Shown here one piece after another: positions 3,861 through 26,944 of a DNA stretch of 26,944 bases. The stretch spans positions 1-26,944 of the IMG/VR virus record IMGVR_UViG_3300018080_003262; one strand, written 5' to 3'. A program made the position numbers and the translations under genes. The notes under the pieces were generated by a model that saw nothing but the letters and a program-made list of their open reading frames with translations, had not been told where the DNA came from and did no database searches. Every line of letters starts with the position of its first letter. Positions within the stretch are counted from its first letter, which is position 1. Source of the stretch: a virus.

Positions 3861-4888
3861 AGCTCGTCCCACATTGACAGTTTTTCAACATGCGCCTTCA
3901 GTTCCCTGATCTCCCTGTCCTTGCTCTCGATACCCCTGCAGGCAACATCAAGGTCTGCCTTCAGCTTCTCCACCTTTCGAACCAGACCCATGCGGTGCCG
4001 GTCGTGGCCGGGTGGAACCCAGCCGTCCTTCAACTGGTCAACACGTTTTGCAAAGATGGTATGGATGTCCGAATCAAAGGAATAAAACAGGCGCGTGGCC
4101 CGCACCCATCTGGGAAGCTGGAGGACCACACGGTCGCGGTCATGGACGTATTCGGTTATTACAAACCCAAAGCCCTGTGTATCCTGTCCCCAGATGGCCA
4201 TCATCTCAGGCTTGCGGCCAATCTCCATATTCGTATCAGGCTCTTCATCTCCGTTCCACAGTGGAGACTGAATAAAATGCATGGTCATTGCCCAGCTTGT
4301 AATCTCCCCCGGATTCATGTCATGGTAGACAACGTGCCAGCCACTGTCCTTTGTCATGGCCCCACAGCCCATCCATGGCGGAGGCATGTCGCCGGATGGA
4401 TCTCCATAGTTTAGAAACTGTGGGGACGGGACACTTATTTCGATCCCGCTTTCGGCGGTAAACTGAACACTGGTTGTTTCCATGGCGTCAGCCTTCGTTG
4501 CTGCTTCATGTGCCGCTTCCGCAACCTTCACTTCCAGTCCTTCAGTGGTATCCACCCTCGTCCAGTTGTTTCTTTCAACACAAACAAAACTATCTCCTTT
4601 GACACTGGCAAAGTCACCGGGCGCACCCGGCGGAAGATCTCCAATCCTGTTAAAGGCCCCAAGAAATCTCGTGCCGGTGGAAACGGACGGGGACACGGGC
4701 GGAAGCAGGGCCTCGGCATCCTTTGGAAGCTCCTTTCTGTCAAAGCTCACCCACTCCCTGTCTGCCCTGTAAAGATAAACCCTGTGGTCGTTGTCCCAGG
4801 TAAGGGCAAGGGCTCCCGGCTCCGGTCTGGAAGCCAGGATCATTTCCTCCTCCTGGTATCGCCCCACATATTTCAGCTTCATGCTCAT
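3857..4888 (-). CDS. Hypothetical 343-residue protein, C-terminal coiled coil
   Basis: The N-terminal ~100 residues look beta-rich (MKLKYVGRYQEEEMILASRP; VYLYRADREWVSFDRKE), the centre has a Pro/Trp-rich section (DPSGDMPPPWMGCGAMTKDS), and the last ~60 residues (VRKVEKLKADLDVACRG; REIRELKAHVEKL) form a probable coiled coil. It begins in an ATGA overlap with the VWA-protein gene, so its product may be made in step with that complex. No recognised family. Confidence 0.85.
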   Translation of the reverse strand: MSMKLKYVGRYQEEEMILASRPEPGALALTWDNDHRVYLYRADREWVSFDRKELPKDAEALLPPVSPSVSTGTRFLGAFNRIGDLPPGAPGDFASVKGDSFVCVERNNWTRVDTTEGLEVKVAEAAHEAATKADAMETTSVQFTAESGIEISVPSPQFLNYGDPSGDMPPPWMGCGAMTKDSGWHVVYHDMNPGEITSWAMTMHFIQSPLWNGDEEPDTNMEIGRKPEMMAIWGQDTQGFGFVITEYVHDRDRVVLQLPRWVRATRLFYSFDSDIHTIFAKRVDQLKDGWVPPGHDRHRMGLVRKVEKLKADLDVACRGIESKDREIRELKAHVEKLSMWDEL

Positions 4889-6999
4889 CCCGCCCTCGCT
4901 ATTATCCGTGCCAGCTTGCCCATCACTTTTCTGGGAAGCTCCGCAATGTTGTTTATCACTACATACTCAGGATAAAATTCCCTTACATGGTGGTCCATGA
5001 TTCCGATGCCGACCACTTCTATCCCGGCCTTGATTATCTTTCTCACGGCGCGGTAAAGGTCACCGTGAAGGATCTGGTATCGACGCTCGCTTGTTGCGGG
5101 GTGGCCATCGCTCAACACAAGCATGATTTTTCTTTTCTGCTTCTGCTCACTCAGCCGGTTGGCTGCCCACTTCACAGCGTCACCGTCCGGGTTTTGATAG
5201 CCCGACTTGATGTTTACGAGCCCGTTCAGCTTTGCCGAATCAAAGCGCTTGAAAACCATCAGTTCAAGCCGCTCCTGGTATCTGGCGAATCTGGAAAGGT
5301 CGCCACCGTGGTCCAGTGACCACCGGGCCATTCTCTGATCCGGTACCGAATGGAAGCCGGTTATTTCGAATGGTATCTGTAGCTGGGTGAGCGCCTCGGC
5401 TATGGCTATCGCGGTAAGCCTTGCAGTTTCAATCTTGTCCCCGCTCATGGAGCCGGAAAGGTCTATCAGGATCTCCACGGCCACGTTCGTCGTTTCGGTG
5501 CGCCTTTGCTCCTTGAAGGGCGTGCGGTAGTTGGGGTTTGTAAACATTCTGTTCAGCGACCGCCCGTTTATCATTCCGCGCTCGCGCTCGGTGCGCCAGT
5601 GAACATTCTCCTGGACCTTCAGTGTCTTCTCCAGCCAGTGCTTTATGGATGAAACGTGTTTGTTTATTTCAGCCTTCAGCTTGTTGTATTTGCGCGGGTC
5701 ACCCTTGCCGGTGACATCCATCTCCTTGTCAAAACGCGTGGTCGATACCAGATAGGGCTTGCTCGACCTGCCCCTGTCCACAATTGGGGCTGCGCCGTGT
5801 CTGCCTCTTTTCAGGCTTGCAGGCCCGTCTCCGGGTCTTGCCATCCCAGCATCCACACCATCCGGCTCGACACCTGTGGGATGCTCTTCGCAGAACTTTT
5901 CGATGTTGCGCCTTATCATGTCGTCCACGGTAAAGTTGGTTTCATCCCAGCGCTTGTCCTTGTTGTCGTTGATTACTTCATCACCGCGCTTGTCCCTGGG
6001 TGGTCTAGGTCCGCGATCATCTGATCCAGTGCCGTCTCCCTTTCCATCCTTGTCAGCGCCTCCCTCATCGCCTTCTCCCTCGCTTCCCGTCTTGCCTTCT
6101 GATCCCGACGCTTCTGTCTTTTCTTCGCCTTCGCCAGCGCCCTTCTCCTCTTCGCTCCCACTGCCACCTCCTGTCATTGTGTCGTCGCTCTTTTCGGTTT
6201 TGTTTTTCTCGCCAGTGCCAGAGCCGCCCTTGCCCTTCGAACCAGATCCTTCAGCTTCCTCTTCCTCTCCACCCTTGCCCTTGCTTGTGCCTTCCGAACC
6301 CTCTTCCTTTTCACTGCCCTCTCCCCCTTCTCCGGATTCCCCGGACTCACCGCCCTTGCCGTGCTCGTTTTTTCTGTCCTTGCAGTCGCCCGAACAATCC
6401 TCCTCCTCATTGTCCACGTAATCTATCACGGCGCGGGTTATGTCCTCGGTCACCCTTCGAAGCTCGTCGGTGCTTTTACAGTCGTTCAGCTTTGCGACAT
6501 GGGTTTCAATCCTGTCCATCATTACCATTACGTTTTTGTCTTCGATGTTCCACGGCTCGCCGGACATGCGCCCCTCGATTTCAAAAATAAGCTGGACCGG
6601 CCATGGGTACTTTTCAACACCGTTGTCCCTGATTCCCTTTTTCAGCTTTTCGTTCAGCGGCTTCAGGTTGTAGTGGCAGCCTGGAAATTCCTTGACGATC
6701 TCGCGCTCGATCCTCACATCCTCAAGCGCGTTTAAAAGATTCTTGTGGAAGGCAGCCCCGCGTCCCCTGATCAGCTTGTCAAACTGATTGAAACACGAAT
6801 ACCGGCAGTGGCCGACCTCATGGTCCAGAAAGCCGTGCATGTCTTCCATAAGCTCTGGTGTCAATTCCGTCGTGGCGGGGAGGTATATTGTCTTGCCGTC
6901 CGTCTTCGCCCCACTCCCCTGGAAGACCACTTCTATGTCATATTGTGCCGCAATGATCCTGCCTATCTTTTCAAGGCCTGTTTCAAATATTCTTTTCAT
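4885..6999 (-). CDS. CobT/NorD-like protein: HExxH domain, acidic linker, VWA
   Basis: A 704-residue protein. The N-terminal domain has HEVGH at 60-64 followed by NALEDVRIE at 90-98, the zinc-metallopeptidase-like HExxH...NxxED pattern seen in CobT/NorD-type VWA proteins. Residues ~205-345 are a Gly/Ser/Glu/Lys-rich acidic linker. The C-terminal VWA domain carries the MIDAS motif DLSGSMS (513-519), with later acidic positions in NPDGD and LSDGH. Family knowledge: such proteins work with MoxR/CobS AAA+ ATPases, in metal insertion (CobNST) or in remodelling (NorQ/NorD). The gene starts in a TAATG overlap with exactly such an ATPase gene. No cobalamin genes are nearby, so a chelatase role is unlikely; a phage-specific remodelling or proteolytic machine is the inference. 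Confidence 0.9.
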   Translation of the reverse strand: MKRIFETGLEKIGRIIAAQYDIEVVFQGSGAKTDGKTIYLPATTELTPELMEDMHGFLDHEVGHCRYSCFNQFDKLIRGRGAAFHKNLLNALEDVRIEREIVKEFPGCHYNLKPLNEKLKKGIRDNGVEKYPWPVQLIFEIEGRMSGEPWNIEDKNVMVMMDRIETHVAKLNDCKSTDELRRVTEDITRAVIDYVDNEEEDCSGDCKDRKNEHGKGGESGESGEGGEGSEKEEGSEGTSKGKGGEEEEAEGSGSKGKGGSGTGEKNKTEKSDDTMTGGGSGSEEEKGAGEGEEKTEASGSEGKTGSEGEGDEGGADKDGKGDGTGSDDRGPRPPRDKRGDEVINDNKDKRWDETNFTVDDMIRRNIEKFCEEHPTGVEPDGVDAGMARPGDGPASLKRGRHGAAPIVDRGRSSKPYLVSTTRFDKEMDVTGKGDPRKYNKLKAEINKHVSSIKHWLEKTLKVQENVHWRTERERGMINGRSLNRMFTNPNYRTPFKEQRRTETTNVAVEILIDLSGSMSGDKIETARLTAIAIAEALTQLQIPFEITGFHSVPDQRMARWSLDHGGDLSRFARYQERLELMVFKRFDSAKLNGLVNIKSGYQNPDGDAVKWAANRLSEQKQKRKIMLVLSDGHPATSERRYQILHGDLYRAVRKIIKAGIEVVGIGIMDHHVREFYPEYVVINNIAELPRKVMGKLARIIARAG

Positions 7000-8120
7000 T
7001 AGCTTCTCTCCTGTCCAAAAAGAACCCGCTTGATGATTCCCTCGATGGCCATCTTGTCCTCACGGCTCACCTTTGAAAAGATGGTCGATTCGGCAGCCTT
7101 CAGTGGAGCGTGCTTCTTCTTGTCGCGGTGGCGTACTATCATTTCAGCCCAATCCATGAGCCGCCTGGTTGAGAATGTTGACGCGACCGTTTCCTCTGCA
7201 AAAGCCTTTCTTACCATGGTCGCAACCTTGACCAGTTCGCTGGCCACCTTTTCAGTCATGCGCGGAACCGATCCGGAGACAACCTTGGCTTCGGTTTTCT
7301 GATCAAGGTAGTCGACCACGTAAACCTTCCACCGGTCCAGGAAAGCCTCGTTCATTATGTTTGTGCCCTGGTAGAGCCCACGGAATTCGGCCATCACACC
7401 TACAGCGTTGGCGGTAGCCATGATTCTGAAATCCTTGTGCGGCTCGACTATCTCGTGCCCCTTCTCCTTCAGGGTAAGGCACCCACCCGGCTCAAGAACC
7501 GAATTCAAAACCGAAAGGATCGCAGCGTCGGCAAAATCCAGTTCGTCGATAACCAGCCAGAGCCCGTGTCTCATGCAGTAGGGAAGTATGCCGTCCACCC
7601 ATTCCATTGAGCCGCCCTTCACAACCCATGTCCCTGTGAAGTCTGCGATGGTGGTTTGATGGTTCATGTTGGCCCGCATGAGCGGCTGGCCGATCCGTGC
7701 AGCAAGCTGGAAAAAGCAGGAGGTTTTTCCAGTGCCCGTGTGGCCTATCAAAAACACTGGTTTTGGATGTGGCGTGCTCTGGGTGTCCAGAATCACATCC
7801 TTGGTGAAGTCCTGAAAAACATAGTGCTCGTTTTTCTTCGGGATGTATCTTTTCAGTTCATCGGGGCATGACCGGATTGCCATCTCAGTCCCGGCGATCA
7901 TTACATTTCCTTTTTCATCTATCACAGCCTTGTCCCCCAAATATGCTTCCTGAAGATCGGGATGGACGATACTGTCCAGCCCGCCGTGCTGTTCCGCGTA
8001 TTCCTCAACGGTGATTTCCGGGTGGGCTTCGTCGATGTGGTGCATGAGGTTTCCACACTCATGTCCACACACCGTGCCGTCCTTCCCTATCACCTGACAA
8101 GTGAGCTTTCCCTTTTTCAT
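6999..8120 (-). CDS. MoxR/CobS-type AAA+ ATPase with N-terminal Cys/His finger
   Basis: A 373-residue protein. Residues 8-33 (C8, C18, C22, H27/H28, H33, then a VEEYAEQHGG helix) resemble a MucR/Ros-like zinc finger. The AAA+ core has Walker A GHTGTGKTS (126-134), Walker B LWLVIDELD (187-195) and sensor ATAN (235-238), with the 'NSVLEPGG' and 'FLDRW' features of MoxR/CobS enzymes. It should be an oligomeric ATPase that acts on or through the VWA partner encoded next. The ATGA overlap upstream and TAATG overlap downstream point to a fixed stoichiometric unit with the coiled-coil protein at 8117-8398. Confidence 0.92.
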   Translation of the reverse strand: MKKGKLTCQVIGKDGTVCGHECGNLMHHIDEAHPEITVEEYAEQHGGLDSIVHPDLQEAYLGDKAVIDEKGNVMIAGTEMAIRSCPDELKRYIPKKNEHYVFQDFTKDVILDTQSTPHPKPVFLIGHTGTGKTSCFFQLAARIGQPLMRANMNHQTTIADFTGTWVVKGGSMEWVDGILPYCMRHGLWLVIDELDFADAAILSVLNSVLEPGGCLTLKEKGHEIVEPHKDFRIMATANAVGVMAEFRGLYQGTNIMNEAFLDRWKVYVVDYLDQKTEAKVVSGSVPRMTEKVASELVKVATMVRKAFAEETVASTFSTRRLMDWAEMIVRHRDKKKHAPLKAAESTIFSKVSREDKMAIEGIIKRVLFGQERS

Positions 8121-8651: not shown

Positions 8652-8876
8652 TCACTCATCTATATCAGCCTTTCCTTCCACGTATTTCTCGTAAAAGGCG
8701 TCCCGCCCCTCGGCGATCATGGCGTGAACCACCCAGGACACGGAAACCTGGCGGCCCCAGAAGCCGGAAAGGTAATCGGCGAACTTCAGAAGCTCGCGGT
8801 CCTGTGTGGGTGTGAAGCGAATGGGCCTGATCTTTGACCGCGCCTCGCATGGAACCGTGTAATGGGCCTTGGCCAC
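8652..8876 (-). CDS. Small protein, possible ribbon-helix-helix regulator
   Basis: A 74-residue basic protein. Residues ~17-60 (IRPIRFTPTQDRELLKFADY, then VSVSWVVHAMIAEGRDAF) fit a beta-strand plus two-helix ribbon-helix-helix layout, as in CopG/MetJ-type DNA-binding proteins; the match is by pattern only. The start is a GTG at 8876 with GAAGGAGGTGGC upstream, directly after the stop of the deacetylase-fold gene, so the two are probably co-expressed. Confidence 0.7.
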   Translation of the reverse strand: MAKAHYTVPCEARSKIRPIRFTPTQDRELLKFADYLSGFWGRQVSVSWVVHAMIAEGRDAFYEKYVEGKADIDE

Positions 8877-9725
8877 CTATGCCACCTCCTTCTCACTTTC
8901 CATTTCGACCTTCAGGCATTCCATCGCCGTGTTGCGGTGGATCTCAAGGATCGTTTCGGTGTTACTGTATCCGCCGGAAAGGTTCCACGCCACCGGAATT
9001 CCCATCTTGTGCAGCGTCTGAAAAACTATCCTGTCACGCTCCTTCATTTCCTCAGTGGTCATCCACCCGCCAAGCGGATCGGAGACATGCGGGTCGGCTC
9101 CAGCCTGGTAGAGAACCAGATCGCAGCCCTTGAAGCGGTCCATGATTATCTCGGGAAGCCGTCTCAAAAATATCTTTGCATCGCTTCTCATTCCATAGAT
9201 GTCACCGCTGGAATAGTGCTCGATCCATTTTATTTTCAGCTTCCGGATTATATCCACTGTCCCGTTTCCATAGTGGCAGTCGCAGTCCAGAATCCCCACC
9301 TTCCGCACCAGCTTTTCAGAATAAAGCCTCTTGGCCGCGATCAGAAGGCCGTTGAACGTGCAGAAGCCTCCACCGTGGGACCAGCAGGCGTGATGAAATC
9401 CACTGCAAAGGGCCGCAACCATTGTCCTGCCCTTTATGGCGGCCTTGGCAGCCCAGTACATTGCACCGGATGTGTACTGAAGCGTCCGTGCGATCTCCTC
9501 CTTCCGGTTTCCAAATCCATTGGGTGCCTTGCAGTCCAGCACACCGTTAACATACTTCATGTCGTGGACCCGGTAAAAATCATTGCGTCCCAGCGGGATC
9601 GGTGACACCACTTCGATGTCAAGGCCGTGCTTCCGCCAGTCCTCGACTACCATTTTCGGCTTGGCCGGACTTGGGCTCATCCCGCCCGAATCGGCCACCA
9701 TCTTGCTTGTGTAATAAACCTTCAT
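8877..9725 (-). CDS. Histone-deacetylase-fold amidohydrolase (HDAC/AcuC/APAH)
   Basis: A 282-residue protein with the full HDAC-superfamily signature: catalytic His pair in SGFHHA (H111, H112), the zinc-binding loop LDCDCHYGNGT (D149, H151), the third zinc ligand in YQAGADPHVSDPLGG (D211), and the transition-state Tyr in NLSGGY (Y253). The N-terminus (YYTSKMVADSGGMSPSP) also matches the family. Length is near the lower end for bacterial members. Known relatives remove acetyl groups from lysines, acetylpolyamines or acetoin-pathway proteins. The substrate cannot be read from the sequence; deacetylation of host or phage proteins or of polyamines are the options. Starts in an ATGA overlap with the preceding gene. 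Confidence 0.93.
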   Translation of the reverse strand: MKVYYTSKMVADSGGMSPSPAKPKMVVEDWRKHGLDIEVVSPIPLGRNDFYRVHDMKYVNGVLDCKAPNGFGNRKEEIARTLQYTSGAMYWAAKAAIKGRTMVAALCSGFHHACWSHGGGFCTFNGLLIAAKRLYSEKLVRKVGILDCDCHYGNGTVDIIRKLKIKWIEHYSSGDIYGMRSDAKIFLRRLPEIIMDRFKGCDLVLYQAGADPHVSDPLGGWMTTEEMKERDRIVFQTLHKMGIPVAWNLSGGYSNTETILEIHRNTAMECLKVEMESEKEVA

Positions 9726-10023
9726 GTCAATCCACCCTTTCTAAACTCGGCGCATATTTCAAGAACCTTGTACGACCGCTTTGAATCGCAGAATTCATGC
9801 AGCAGGTTTGAGAATTTCTTTAGCTCCCGGTCGCTCATCATTCCAAACACCTGCCGCAGGGTCGCGTTGCTTGTTGTGATAAACTGCGCCATCGTCATCT
9901 TCTTCGCGTCCTTGAGCCTGCCCCGAATGGCGTAGCTGGTGTTGAACCAGATGTCGTCCGGAACCGTTACCTTCATCCTCTCGACCACGATCTGTTTGGT
10001 TTTTGTATTCATGTCAATCCACC
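9721..10023 (-). repeat. Duplicated 16-base gene junction
   Basis: The plus-strand 16-mer TTCATGTCAATCCACC occurs at 9721-9736 and 10008-10023. Each copy covers the end of one gene, a ribosome binding site and the ATG plus next two bases of the next gene. The identity spans non-homologous proteins, so it is not explained by gene duplication. Confidence 0.8.
9722..10012 (-). CDS. Hypothetical 96-residue basic protein
   Basis: A basic, mostly helical protein (VERMKVTVPDDIWFNTSYAI, then FGMMSDRELKKFSNLLHEF). The first part could be a strand-helix DNA-binding unit but no family is recognised. The start region GGTGGATTGACATGAA is identical over 16 bases to that of the following deacetylase-fold gene. 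It overlaps that gene by 4 bases. Confidence 0.8.
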   Translation of the reverse strand: MNTKTKQIVVERMKVTVPDDIWFNTSYAIRGRLKDAKKMTMAQFITTSNATLRQVFGMMSDRELKKFSNLLHEFCDSKRSYKVLEICAEFRKGGLT

Positions 10024-10352
10024 TTCGCCAGTTCTTCCATGGCTTCCTCGAATGTTGTTGTCTTGTGGGTTTTCGATGCCGGTTTCTTTTTGGTTTTGGG
10101 TGCCGGTTTCTTTTTGGTTTTGGGTGCCGGTCTGCCGCCTCCGCCTTCAGGCCCGCACTTGCTGCTGACCTTGATGTAGCCCTTTGCTATCTTGTCCTCC
10201 GCCCGGTCAAACGCCTCGGCCTCGCTTCTGGTCTGCTCGCCGCCGATCCTGCCTATGCGGCCCCAGCGGATTATTGCCATCCCGCGACCGGCTGGCTCTA
10301 TCTCCCAGTACTTGTTTGACCTGCCTTCTGTGAATTCATAGCGTCCGTACAT
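10014..10352 (-). CDS. WGR-domain protein with Lys-rich tail
   Basis: A 112-residue protein. Residues 1-60 form a WGR domain: YWEIEPAGRGMAIIRWGRIG with the signature W30-G31-R32 and a following IGRIGG, then EAEAFDRAEDKIAKGY. WGR domains occur in PARP1-3, where they bind DNA ends, and in bacterial MolR-like and stand-alone proteins. Residues ~76-100 are a Lys/Pro repeat (PAPKTKKK twice) that would bind nucleic acid, and a short helical end follows. I chose the ATG at 10352 (CGGAGGG upstream); the longer frame runs back into the upstream gene. Its place near DNA ligase fits a DNA-end or nick-binding role, which is inference. Confidence 0.85.
   Translation of the reverse strand: MYGRYEFTEGRSNKYWEIEPAGRGMAIIRWGRIGRIGGEQTRSEAEAFDRAEDKIAKGYIKVSSKCGPEGGGGRPAPKTKKKPAPKTKKKPASKTHKTTTFEEAMEELAKVD
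10078..10125. repeat. Two perfect 24-base tandem repeats in the WGR gene
   Basis: Two identical 24-base units (10078-10101 and 10102-10125) encode the repeated Lys/Pro segment of the WGR protein tail. Copy number could vary between relatives. Confidence 0.85.
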
Positions 10353-10353
10353 A

Positions 10354-10761
10354 TCAGTCGCCCTCCGTTGATGTTGCCTCGAGCGCCTTCCTGTAAAGCC
10401 AGTCGACGCCCTTTTCAAAGTCTTCGTTTTCAAAGGTTTCGTTCCCCAGAAACCCGCTTGTGGAATCGCCGAGTGCAAAGGTCCAGCCGCCGTCCCAGAA
10501 TGATTCTATCCGGCAGTTCATTTCCATGTCGTAGATGGCCTTCAGCTTTGCCATCGGCCCGTCAAATTCGATCAGCCCGTTTTTGACCGCGCAATTGTCG
10601 CAGAATTCAGAAACCACGTTGGGCCTCTTCTCCACAAGGTAGCCGTAGGCCCGCACCTTGTTTCCAGTTCCACATCCCGAACAGCGTCCAATACAGTCGG
10701 TGATGAAATTTTCGGTGGCTCTCTCCAGCCACGGTTTTGGTTTTAGATCCGGTGTGCTCAT
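10354..10761 (-). CDS. Hypothetical Cys4 zinc-ribbon-like protein
   Basis: A 135-residue protein with C27-x2-C30 and C54-x2-C57 flanking a short beta-like segment, a zinc-ribbon arrangement (C23 is also nearby). The remaining ~75 residues are acidic and Trp-containing with no known motif. It overlaps the ligase gene by 4 bases and the WGR gene follows directly, so the three are probably made together. A nucleic-acid-related role is inferred from the ribbon and context. Confidence 0.82.
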   Translation of the reverse strand: MSTPDLKPKPWLERATENFITDCIGRCSGCGTGNKVRAYGYLVEKRPNVVSEFCDNCAVKNGLIEFDGPMAKLKAIYDMEMNCRIESFWDGGWTFALGDSTSGFLGNETFENEDFEKGVDWLYRKALEATSTEGD

Positions 10762-11723
10762 CGTATTCTCCTTCTTCTTGATTTTGCCTTCTTCTGTTCC
10801 TTCATGTCGTCCTTGACCTTCTGCAGCGTGCAGTCCTTCGCGTCCATGCCGTCCTCGCGGAAGCGGTAAAATGTGGGGTGGCGAAGCCGGTCCGTTTTGG
10901 AAAGCTCCTGTGCATATACGTCCACCACACGCCCGATGTATTTCTCTGGCTCCTCGGTCATGTCCTCGCGTATGCTGTCCACAAAGCCGGAAGCGTACCC
11001 GATGGCCTTGGGCTTGCCGTCATCGTCGATCACTGAAACCTCCATCGCGCCAACCATGCCCGTGTACTTTCCATTGCCGGGTTTGAAGCCGCTGATGAAG
11101 ACCGAAATGTCGTAGCTCTTCTTCATTTTCGACCAGCCCGATCCATAGCCCTGCCTCACATCCTTCACGACCAGCCCCTCGCCGCCCCTGCCCACTACCT
11201 TGAGAAAGAGCTCTTCGACCTTGTCGTGCGGATACTGTGTGAGGGTTTTGATGTTTGGATTTTTCATCCGCTTTACAACCTCGACCAGAATCTTCCGGCG
11301 CTGTGTAAGCGGAAGGCCCCTTATGTCCTTGCCCTTGAAAACCGGGATGTCCCAAACATAGTATTTGATCCAGCCGATCTCCTTCTGCCGCTCGATGGCC
11401 TTGGCGGGCGAGGCTCCCATTATGGAAGTCGTGGTCGAAATATCGGTGTGGAACATCTCGCCGTCCAGTTCACAGCCCTCAAGGCCGGGATATTCGACGC
11501 CCGTGATATGCGGCACGTTGGCCGTCTTGTCCACATTGATCCTGTCCACCTTGGATTTATGCCGTGAGAGCAGCGTATTGCCCTCTGTGCGGCCCGTAGG
11601 GTCGTGGGCAAGGTGAAGAGTATACCTCGCCCCGTCCAGCTTCAGTTCGCCGATGTGGTGCTTTGACAGGGTCTCGGGCAGCTTGGCCGTGCAGCGGGCC
11701 GGTTGTACGTAAAGCGCGTCCAT
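10758..11723 (-). CDS. ATP-dependent DNA ligase
   Basis: A 321-residue protein with the nucleotidyltransferase motifs in order: motif I ELKLDGAR with the adenylated K28, motif III ELDGEMF (85-91), IIIa YYVWDIP (121-127), motif IV GEGLVVKD (181-188) and motif V WSKMKK (197-202). The C-terminal ~115 residues fit an OB-fold, and the end is very basic (KAKSRRRRIR). It seals nicks with ATP during phage replication or repair. Length is typical of small phage ligases. The ATG at 11723 has GGGGGAGGCAAAA upstream. Confidence 0.95.
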   Translation of the reverse strand: MDALYVQPARCTAKLPETLSKHHIGELKLDGARYTLHLAHDPTGRTEGNTLLSRHKSKVDRINVDKTANVPHITGVEYPGLEGCELDGEMFHTDISTTTSIMGASPAKAIERQKEIGWIKYYVWDIPVFKGKDIRGLPLTQRRKILVEVVKRMKNPNIKTLTQYPHDKVEELFLKVVGRGGEGLVVKDVRQGYGSGWSKMKKSYDISVFISGFKPGNGKYTGMVGAMEVSVIDDDGKPKAIGYASGFVDSIREDMTEEPEKYIGRVVDVYAQELSKTDRLRHPTFYRFREDGMDAKDCTLQKVKDDMKEQKKAKSRRRRIR

Positions 11724-24606: not shown

Positions 24607-26676
24607 TTATACGTCAACCTTGGTTGGACCTTGAATACTTCCGGCACCTCCGTTACCACCGTCCTTGTGTGACAATCCAGAACTGTTCGTGGTTCCACCG
24701 GCTCCACCGGCAACAGAAATGGTTGCACCAGGGTCTTGTGAGAGTACGCCAGCATACATGATGATTATTGTTCCACCACCGCTGCCGCCACCGCCGCAGG
24801 CATAGCCGGTTACATACAGGGAAGGACTGCCGCCCTTAATGCCCTTGGCTTCGATTTCTGCATTGGGACCAAGCGTCAGATTGCCTTTTACGAGAAGTAT
24901 CAGCAAGCCTCCTGTTCCGTCGCCGCCGTCCATGATTGGCTTGAGTGTCGTGTAATCTGCTCCAAGTCCACCGGGATTACCTGCGCCGCCTCCGTTGGCA
25001 AAACCACCGGACGGGCCACCATCTCCACCACCGCCACCGTTGTCTTCACCGTTCGCGGGAACGGGAGTGAGGTTGGAGTTTGTATTACTGCCGCACATAC
25101 CTCCACCACCAGAACCGCCTGAAAAACACGTCCCGTCACCACCGGCACCGGCCTGGTTGTTTGTTGTGTCTCCAGCGCGTTGAACACCTCCAGAACCACC
25201 TCCACCGCATGAAGGAGGGCTGAAGGCATTACCGGCCTGACCGGGGGCGTTGTAACCTATACCGTCCCTAACAGAATCGCTTTGTTCCGGAGCACCCGCT
25301 CCACCGTACTTTCTAACGTAGTAAACAATGCCGTCATCGACTTCCTTCTGTTTGTTCTCCGAAGCCTGGGCCACTGCCCCGCACCCTGCGAGCTGGTCTG
25401 GAAGTATGTGGGACTGTCCACCGCCAACCTTGGCCCTTCTAATGACAAGACCACCAGCGTCAACTCCAGTAGGATCACCCTTGTACCCCTTTCCGGTCAT
25501 TGAGATCTTGCCGTCACAATACATGTTCCCCCTGACAAGAAGCATTGTGCCCTTGCAGCGGTTTTGCGGAGTCAGGGTGTCACCGGTATTCAGACTGAAA
25601 TTCAGAAAGTTCTTTACAACCATATCCCCGTCTTCCACGACAGGAATGATTATATCACCGGCACCGCCTCCGGCAGTTGAGACATCCCCGTCGCTTCCAT
25701 CGCCCCACCAGTTTCCAATTTCTCCGCCCTGGCTGTCTATGACTGCCCACAAGCTGTTTGGAACGAGACACAGAAGGGTCACGGCATCATACTGGGAGCT
25801 TGAAGTAAGAAGTTGAATATTGTCATTGGAACTGTCCGGTGACGACAAGTCGCCCTTCACTATCTTCTGGGTTGTGGCCGCCGCATTGGAGTGAATCGCC
25901 CATCCGCCTGTGCCCTTGCCCGCAACGTCAATCCTGTCGAAGGCAACCGAAACCGCCGGAAGGGTGAATATTACAGGGGAAGCCGAGTTTGACACAAAGC
26001 CCTTGTTTACAGACATGGTCGTGTTGACAGTCTTCTCTTCATACTGAAGCAGGCCGCCCCCACCGGCTCCTCCTCCAAACACGCGGAACATTCTGGGGTC
26101 GGACCCGACCTTGTTTTCAATAATTGCCGTCGCCGAACCGGCTGTCTTGTACTTGCTGTCGCCGACCGTCGCATCCGTACACTCAAGATCCATGTAGCCG
26201 ATGTTTACATCGCCCGCAGGGAATACAACGGCTGGATTCACGAGTCCGCCGAGGGTTGCTGATTCGACGGAAAACGCCGCCTCTATTTCATTCAGTGCGC
26301 TCTTGTAGACAAACGCCACCCTTCTGAACTGCCCAAGCGTTCCGTCCGGCAGTGCAAAGGCCCCACCGCCAACCTTCACGGTCCCGCCGGTTGTTGCAGC
26401 GGATTGAAAGTCAATGGTGGTGGCCGGATAAACGTTCAGAACACTCTCTATGGGTGGAGTGGTCTTCTTTGTTCCGTCACCCGCCTCGGTCTGGTTCGAA
26501 CTGATGTTCAGCTTCGAATCGGGTGTTGGAAACGAGGCGAACATTCTCAGTGGATAATCTATATGGCTGTCCAGTTGGGGAATGATCGCGTCAAGTCCGG
26601 TACCCTGTGGTGCACCAATGGCATCATGGTCCGCCATCGACTTCAGTTCGTCGGTGTATCCAAAGGTTTCGTTCAT
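24607..26676 (-). CDS. Glycine-rich tail fibre / adhesin
   Basis: A 689-residue protein. The first ~350 residues are beta-rich with no known motif. Three related units (about residues 378-400, 592-615 and 636-661) share a pattern of hydrophobic strand, (V/K)(R/K)GN or similar and a Gly-rich turn: MLLVRGNMYCDGKISM, LILLVKGNLTLGPNAE, TIIIMYAGVLSQ. Between them residues 476-591 are very Gly-rich (GGGGSGG, GGGGGDGG, GGGAGNPGG), resembling the polyglycine layers of host-binding tail tips such as the S16-like adhesins. It probably binds the host surface. I chose the ATG at 26676 with AAGGAG upstream over one at 26736. Confidence 0.85.
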   Translation of the reverse strand: MNETFGYTDELKSMADHDAIGAPQGTGLDAIIPQLDSHIDYPLRMFASFPTPDSKLNISSNQTEAGDGTKKTTPPIESVLNVYPATTIDFQSAATTGGTVKVGGGAFALPDGTLGQFRRVAFVYKSALNEIEAAFSVESATLGGLVNPAVVFPAGDVNIGYMDLECTDATVGDSKYKTAGSATAIIENKVGSDPRMFRVFGGGAGGGGLLQYEEKTVNTTMSVNKGFVSNSASPVIFTLPAVSVAFDRIDVAGKGTGGWAIHSNAAATTQKIVKGDLSSPDSSNDNIQLLTSSSQYDAVTLLCLVPNSLWAVIDSQGGEIGNWWGDGSDGDVSTAGGGAGDIIIPVVEDGDMVVKNFLNFSLNTGDTLTPQNRCKGTMLLVRGNMYCDGKISMTGKGYKGDPTGVDAGGLVIRRAKVGGGQSHILPDQLAGCGAVAQASENKQKEVDDGIVYYVRKYGGAGAPEQSDSVRDGIGYNAPGQAGNAFSPPSCGGGGSGGVQRAGDTTNNQAGAGGDGTCFSGGSGGGGMCGSNTNSNLTPVPANGEDNGGGGGDGGPSGGFANGGGAGNPGGLGADYTTLKPIMDGGDGTGGLLILLVKGNLTLGPNAEIEAKGIKGGSPSLYVTGYACGGGGSGGGTIIIMYAGVLSQDPGATISVAGGAGGTTNSSGLSHKDGGNGGAGSIQGPTKVDV

Positions 26677-26692
26677 GTCTTTCGACTCCTTG

Positions 26693-26944
26693 CTATGGTG
26701 TCCATTCGTCTGTTTCTCTGCACTCGTTGCATTCAATAACCGTCACATAGGTCTGGTCCCTTGTCCCGTCTCCAGCATAGTAGCTTGTTGAATTCGTAAT
26801 CGAAGACGATACAAATGTTATGGTCGATCCGTTCATCGTCCAGATAATTGGGGCCGAATCCGTGCTGCTCCAGTGACTGCTGATTACAACCACCTGGCTT
26901 GTCATTCCGTTTATCTTTGTCCCCCCATCGTACATGCTCACACC
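26693..26944 (-). CDS. C-terminal end of a tail-associated protein, cut by window edge
   Basis: An open frame continues to the right edge with no stop, ending at 26693. The visible ~83 residues are Ser/Thr-rich and beta-like (TSQVVVISSHWSSTDSAPII; MNGSTITFVSSSI) with a Cys pair ECNEC near the end. Gly-rich start (YDGGTKING) and position before the fibre gene suggest a tail or baseplate protein. A GTG at 26941 or ATG at 26935 could be internal. Confidence 0.65.
   Translation of the reverse strand, partial: GVSMYDGGTKINGMTSQVVVISSHWSSTDSAPIIWTMNGSTITFVSSSITNSTSYYAGDGTRDQTYVTVIECNECRETDEWTP

Follow-up and report, generated by a model that had tools for sequence, protein, structure and literature searches.

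A phage-encoded protein of the histone deacetylase fold, from a lineage sister to class IV enzymes, is a predicted zinc-dependent deacylase

What does a histone deacetylase (HDAC)-fold protein with an intact active site do in a phage, and which known enzymes are its closest relatives? The question is raised by a gene in the stretch of DNA analysed here, termed the window, which spans an entire virus record (26,944 bases). The 282-aa product matched Pfam family PF00850 (Hist_deacetyl) with an E value of 2.1e-32 and 113 bits, against a curated cut-off of 27.9, and no second Pfam family was found in it. PHROGs gave no real match to this protein (E 0.099), PADLOC and NCBIfam gave none, and no defence model fits it. 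The initial annotation had described an HDAC-fold gene with an intact site. This observation was confirmed by the open reading frame, the PF00850 match, the conserved residues and a confident fold model, and chance is excluded as its origin. The features of the locus are collected in Table 1.

Table 1. Position of the HDAC-fold gene, its neighbours and its key codons in the window
Feature	Coordinates	Strand	Source
CDS, HDAC-fold deacylase (predicted), 282 aa, ATG start	8877..9725	-	ORF, Pfam, fold model
S17 to K22 codons, family N-terminal SPSxxK motif, K22 near-invariant	9660..9677	-	
H111/H112 codons, general base pair, motif SGF-HH-A; preceding F110 is the foot-pocket gatekeeper position	9390..9395	-	
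D147 to H151 codons: D147, D149 (zinc), H151 (zinc) in ILDCDCHYGNGT	9273..9287	-	
D211 codon (zinc) in YQAGADPHVSDPLGG	9093..9095	-	
Y253 codon, transition-state Tyr, in LSGGY	8967..8969	-	
Downstream 74-aa ORF, GTG start immediately 3′ of the HDAC stop, no family	8652..8876	-	Pfam, PHROGs, coordinates
Upstream 96-aa ORF, no family, 4-base overlap (ATGA) with the HDAC start	9722..10012	-	Pfam, PHROGs, coordinates
WGR-domain protein, ATG at 10352, ~112 aa, basic PAPKTKKK tail	10014..10352	-	Pfam, coordinates
ATP-dependent DNA ligase	10758..11723	-	Pfam, PHROGs
CobS-like AAA+ ATPase	6999..8120	-	Pfam, PHROGs
CobT-like VWA protein	4885..6999	-	Pfam, PHROGs, NCBIfam

H111, H112, D149, H151, D211 and Y253 were found at the positions first assigned to them, and D147 completes the relay. 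The zinc ligands (D, H, D), HH pair and Tyr that mark PF00850 members are all present in the window protein. H111, H112, D147, D149, H151 and D211 were invariant across 63 distinct viral homologues, and Y253 was kept in all 62 viral homologues long enough to cover its position. The catalytic residues were invariant in bacterial members too. Because the search pattern included D211 and the GFCxF motif (C122), part of their constancy follows from the search itself, and the independent evidence comes from the HH pair, DxDxH and the Tyr. Orthologues with mutated catalytic residues, named initially as grounds for rejecting the idea, were sought among the phage and bacterial homologues and not found. 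N154, which aligns to the second HDAC relay Asp, varies (N/D/G) among viral homologues and is N or D in class IV. A separate variant adjoins the active site: just before the zinc-site GAD (window position 208), His replaces Ala in 35 of 64 phage homologues (e.g., L004, L005), which form one large phage branch.

The claim that the gene is phage-encoded holds, since phage-type genes surround it on the same strand. They encode a primase, a DnaB-like helicase, a sigma factor, a UvsW-like helicase, the DNA ligase, and the CobS-like AAA and CobT-like VWA proteins, a set that we interpret as a fragment of a T4-like phage. Pfam and PHROGs bore out the WGR, ligase and AAA+/VWA neighbours. The WGR gene lies between the ligase and HDAC genes, and the basic tail of its product is a lysine-rich repeat. 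Elsewhere in the window, a 709-aa ORF at 24607-26736 matched neither Pfam nor PHROGs. The 4-base overlap upstream and the GTG directly after the stop codon place the HDAC gene in a translationally coupled phage operon, as the proposal of co-transcription had it. Pfam and PHROGs gave no profile support for the ribbon-helix-helix (74-aa ORF) and basic-protein labels once given to the small neighbours. T4 late-promoter motifs (TATAAATA) were rarer than chance, and promoter and terminator scans revealed nothing informative.

An AlphaFold2 model built from 54 aligned sequences had a mean pLDDT of 95.9 and a pTM of 0.93; the fold and the zinc site are taken from this predicted model, which contains no metal. 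Foldseek matched it to 464 PDB chains at E ≤ 0.001 with HDACs at the head, as expected of a PF00850 fold. The top matches were the zinc deacylases Leptospira HDAC11 (9gz5) and Vibrio cholerae HdaH (9gky, 9gkv), with TMq 0.83-0.85. Structure prediction, the check suggested at the outset, thus supports an HDAC fold. Class II, class I and acetylpolyamine amidohydrolase (APAH) enzymes ranked below HDAC11 and HdaH. The best single-sequence match in the PDB was 9rje (1.2e-24), a class IV clade A enzyme; 9rjd is a clade B enzyme (PMC13325672). The best profile match was 9gkv (3e-46); HDAC6 equals it solely via two summed domains. 9gkv and 9gky are structures of VcHdaH, a weak de-decanoylase of cluster 5b (PMC11532494). 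Class I structures scored ~85 bits by profile, far under the 161 bits of class IV, and APAH entries fell below class IV in both the PDB sequence search and Foldseek. By all three comparisons (sequence, profile and fold), the solved structures closest to the window protein are therefore class IV enzymes, and neither APAH nor AcuC/class I takes that place (the tree described below was built without AcuC rows).

A tree was built from the phage and bacterial family and cellular class IV rows, with HDAC6 as outgroup; human HDAC11 and liHDAC11 are absent from it. The sampled cellular class IV rows formed one clade (SH-aLRT 94). The phage and bacterial family was sister to this clade (SH-aLRT 80; 96 without the E3 branch). 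The window protein falls in the sister clade and not inside the class IV clade. A FastTree analysis of 179 rows gave the same outline, with Magritte outside both groups. Sequence, fold and tree all place the protein beside class IV, and the kinship first suggested with AcuC, APAH or HDAC8 was not upheld. The earlier interpretation stands for the fold, site, phage setting, operon and neighbours, and falls for this kinship and for the small-ORF labels.

Phage and bacterial members were interleaved on the tree, and the analysis supports exchange of the gene between the two. In AU tests of groups picked after the first tree had been inspected, a single phage clade without bacteria was rejected (p-AU 0.002) and a single bacterial origin was not (p-AU 0.059). 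Because closeness to the window clade was the criterion for selecting the cellular rows, a choice that favours their nesting there, no direction of transfer is claimed.

We also searched for viral homologues. A tblastn search of annotated phage records returned seven: four huge-phage records, two of Rhodococcus phage E3 and one of Microbacterium phage Magritte. Two of the four huge-phage records, of 735,411 bases each, gave identical matches. The nearest annotated huge-phage homologue (L002 7947-8857; LR756511.1) lies in two frames, split near DxDxH. Against viral contigs, a single-sequence query gave no match, and an alignment query was required to detect relatives; in one scan it found them on at least 190 contigs, of which 80 were retained. 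The view that such enzymes are not a standard part of phage genomes should be qualified in the light of these numbers and of the existing annotation of a "putative histone deacetylase protein" in the cultured phage E3. Identity between the window protein and phage homologues was at most 51%; plasmid records held distant HDACs only (at most ~33%). In the window and in L007, L011 and L017, the HDAC gene lies just upstream of the CobS/CobT pair, and it lies elsewhere in other lineages. Because this position recurs, the gene looks maintained. The gene neighbourhoods of 53 groups of viral loci revealed no common functional partner beyond lineage synteny, and the neighbour genes name no substrate.

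Residues that distinguish the named enzymes were then compared. Where robust deacetylases have the RPP motif, the window protein has CSGFHH and the family (T/C)SGFHH; VcHdaH has SGGYHH and HDAC11 has GGGFHH at this position (PMC11532494). The gatekeeper F110 is Phe as in clade B, an active-type residue (PMC13325672), whereas Thr, Tyr or Ser occupies this position in the sampled cellular class IV rows. The Arg located at the end of the foot pocket in clade A was present in 30 of 30 sampled class IV rows; it corresponds to T81 here and to Ser, Thr or Ala in most of the family. The clade A combination of a Thr/Ser gatekeeper and an Arg-Glu pair is absent, with F110, T81 and T85 in its place. The clade B combination of HPFD and Glu94 is also absent, with SPSP and N73 at the aligned positions. 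Glu94 of HDAC11 was aligned to N73 by HMM alignment with 9gz5, an assignment made less certain by gaps in this loop among distant phages. In L1, the family carries SPSxxK, clade B carries HPFD and the sampled class IV rows carry RFPM; all three groups retain K22. H151 and D211 are separated by 57-65 residues in most members vs 74-75 in class IV, which makes the H-to-D loop 10-18 residues shorter. Within this shortened region falls the stretch that, in HDAC11, bears the second channel aromatic; it is not conserved here.

In the alignments, the clade has marks of its own: SPSxxK, a Phe gatekeeper, no foot-pocket Arg and a shorter H-to-D loop. The diagnostic positions suggest a class-IV-type interior with a different rim, in which the foot pocket would be kept and the rim loops shortened.

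We consider, with a probability of about 0.6, that the protein is a phage-encoded zinc-dependent deacylase, its activity being predicted, from the lineage that forms the sister group of class IV HDACs. Most likely it would be an active enzyme that acts on a host-derived acyl-amine. By the standard metal-assisted HDAC mechanism, one zinc would be bound via D149, H151 and D211, H111/H112 with D147 would activate water, and Y253 would stabilise the intermediate. The acyl group would be cut from the amine and would exit through the foot pocket behind F110. The substrate, either acyl-lysine of host or phage proteins or a small acyl-amine, would be deacylated during infection. The roles put forward initially, on RNA polymerase, nucleoid proteins or polyamines or in counter-defence, are candidates only. 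A host-derived substrate is favoured because PF00583 acetyltransferases are missing from most carrier contigs: they were found in 8 of 34 carrier records, mostly huge phages, and not in the window. A phage acyltransferase may have escaped these counts, which cover a single acetyltransferase family and many fragmentary contigs. Two points speak against the deacylase reading: class IV clade A enzymes showed no activity on peptide substrates despite an intact site (PMC13325672), and the window protein has a rim unlike that of every class IV enzyme of solved structure.

It is possible, if on the unlikely side, that the enzyme deacylates only small non-peptide molecules (an acetylpolyamine, amino sugar, acylated nucleotide or antibiotic) and not proteins. 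Clade A class IV enzymes have been proposed to act on non-peptide substrates; Glu94, which favours peptides (PMC13325672), is replaced by N73 here, and the shorter rim loop agrees with this explanation. Eukaryotic giant viruses also have HDAC-fold proteins, some of which were shown to be acetylspermidine amidohydrolases (PMC9992855). However, the clade A signatures are missing from the window protein, the virus search for APAHs reported Imitervirales only (PMC9992855), and no polyamine gene was identified beside the HDAC gene.

The bacterial relatives offer further clues to function. A GTDB scan gave 215 loci, and the best 80 of the 215 were 44-53% identical to the window protein; these 80 came mostly from Gamma- and Betaproteobacteria and Myxococcota, and Dokdonella and Methylobacter are examples of genera with a close relative. 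Family frequency was estimated in 398 genomes sampled evenly from one phylum. Two family matches were found, with 320 and 293 bits, the former being the centre genome, a carrier known beforehand. The next best match, with 196 bits, clustered among ordinary class IV rows in the tree. Accordingly, the family is a discrete one that is rare among cellular genomes; its carriers are for the most part large phages, with scattered bacteria besides. A number of bacterial members are chromosomal, on long contigs with apparent housekeeping genes adjacent; others lie in accessory islands.

A WYL-type regulator family was found near the HDAC gene in 17 of the 80 loci (L089, L093, L096, L097, L099, L109, L123, L128, L130, L136, L140 and L143, and further L153, L154, L155, L158 and L167). 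The Pfam WYL model confirmed 12. From a background of 125 matches in 194.8 Mb (40 of the carrier genomes), the expectation for the 844 kb of loci is about 0.54. The WYL loci are not independent, as at least five are from Methylococcaceae; outside this family, the regulators were diverse (15-29% identity to the first one). In Methylobacter-type loci, the HDAC relative lies beside a WYL regulator, an ADP-ribosylarginine-hydrolase-like gene, a NUDIX gene and a conserved 79-aa ORF. Other neighbours, in single loci or small groups, were ADP-ribosylarginine-hydrolase-like, NUDIX, RtcB, calcineurin-like phosphatase, IetA-like AAA and AddAB-like genes. One Methylobacter psychrophilus locus (L099 3132-12818) has two nearby HDAC-family genes with similar island neighbours, the second in two frames.

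The WYL excess and the conflict-type character of some islands would suit a factor for counter-defence or host takeover, one that reverses acylation carried out by a toxin or a defence acetyltransferase of the host. We think this explanation improbable, because the protein matches no defence model, the island link is bacterial and not phage and comes from non-independent loci, and such a factor has no known acetyltransferase target. Still less probable is a role in ADP-ribose chemistry, in which the enzyme would deacylate acyl-ADP-ribose or ADP-ribosylated targets beside ADP-ribosyl hydrolases. The Methylobacter-type arrangement points that way, and ARG-centred WYL/Nudix systems, considered likely anti-viral by their describers, have been reported, without HDAC (PMC9503650). 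However, only a handful of loci are involved, and HDACs hydrolyse amides, whereas O-acyl-ADP-ribose is an ester. An ADP-ribosyl hydrolase was present in 5 of 40 phage records that carry the HDAC gene, so the bacterial link does not transfer simply to phages. A pseudoenzyme that only binds an acylated ligand, or a contaminant host gene misassembled into the contig, is largely refuted: bacterial relatives do reach 53% identity vs at most 51% for phage ones, but every catalytic residue is kept, the frames are coupled among same-strand phage genes, the placement is alike in three other phage contigs, and homologues occur in complete phage genomes.

More broadly, we tentatively suggest, as an unlikely extension of the deacylase reading, a deacylase family, dominated by phages and separate from classes I, II and IV, through which large phages would remodel host acylation and which bacteria would have acquired on repeated occasions, in part into WYL-regulated conflict islands. 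If the enzymes are active, they represent a widespread phage deacylase lineage, and phages could remove acyl marks besides adding other marks to host proteins. The set includes members from two cultured phages (E3 and, with gp204 as a more distant homologue, Magritte) for asking whether acylation matters in infection. The lineage adds a branch beside class IV HDACs, the least understood class, and provides natural variants of the rim and gatekeeper, which are said to set substrate choice. The WYL link and the few ADP-ribosyl-hydrolase loci are a lead to the role of the bacterial relatives. In the open-access literature (subscription papers lay outside the search), no paper was found on the clade, the extent of the clade in phages, the bacterial branch or the island context, and a word search of PMC11532494 and PMC13325672 found no mention of phages or viruses.

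Among known systems, the Imitervirales APAHs (PMC9992855) are likewise virus-encoded HDAC-fold zinc amidohydrolases; however, they come from eukaryotic viruses and belong to the APAH family, and solved APAH structures rank behind class IV for the window protein. E3 gp202 is a phage homologue with 31.5% identity over 94% of the protein and the same catalytic residues, but it forms a deeper, separate branch of the clade and has another gene neighbourhood. C. reinhardtii chrHDAC11-1 (9rje, clade A) is the closest PDB entry by single sequence, although its clade A marks are missing in the window protein. Leptospira liHDAC11 (9gz5/9rjd, clade B; PMC13325672) is the top Foldseek match; it too has a Phe gatekeeper and a foot pocket that does not end in Arg (Ser94 vs T81 in the window protein). 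It differs in HPFD (SPSx here), in Glu84/94 (N73 here) and in retaining the channel-aromatic stretch. VcHdaH (9gkv, 9gky; PMC11532494), with the best profile score and a TMq of 0.85, shares the replacement of RPP by SGxHH, the GGY tyrosine, the DxH after the zinc Asp, and His263. Its identity to the window protein is ~20%, its H-to-D spacing is 75 residues vs 60 here, its gatekeeper is Tyr vs Phe here, and the N-terminal motif of sampled class IV rows differs from SPSxxK.
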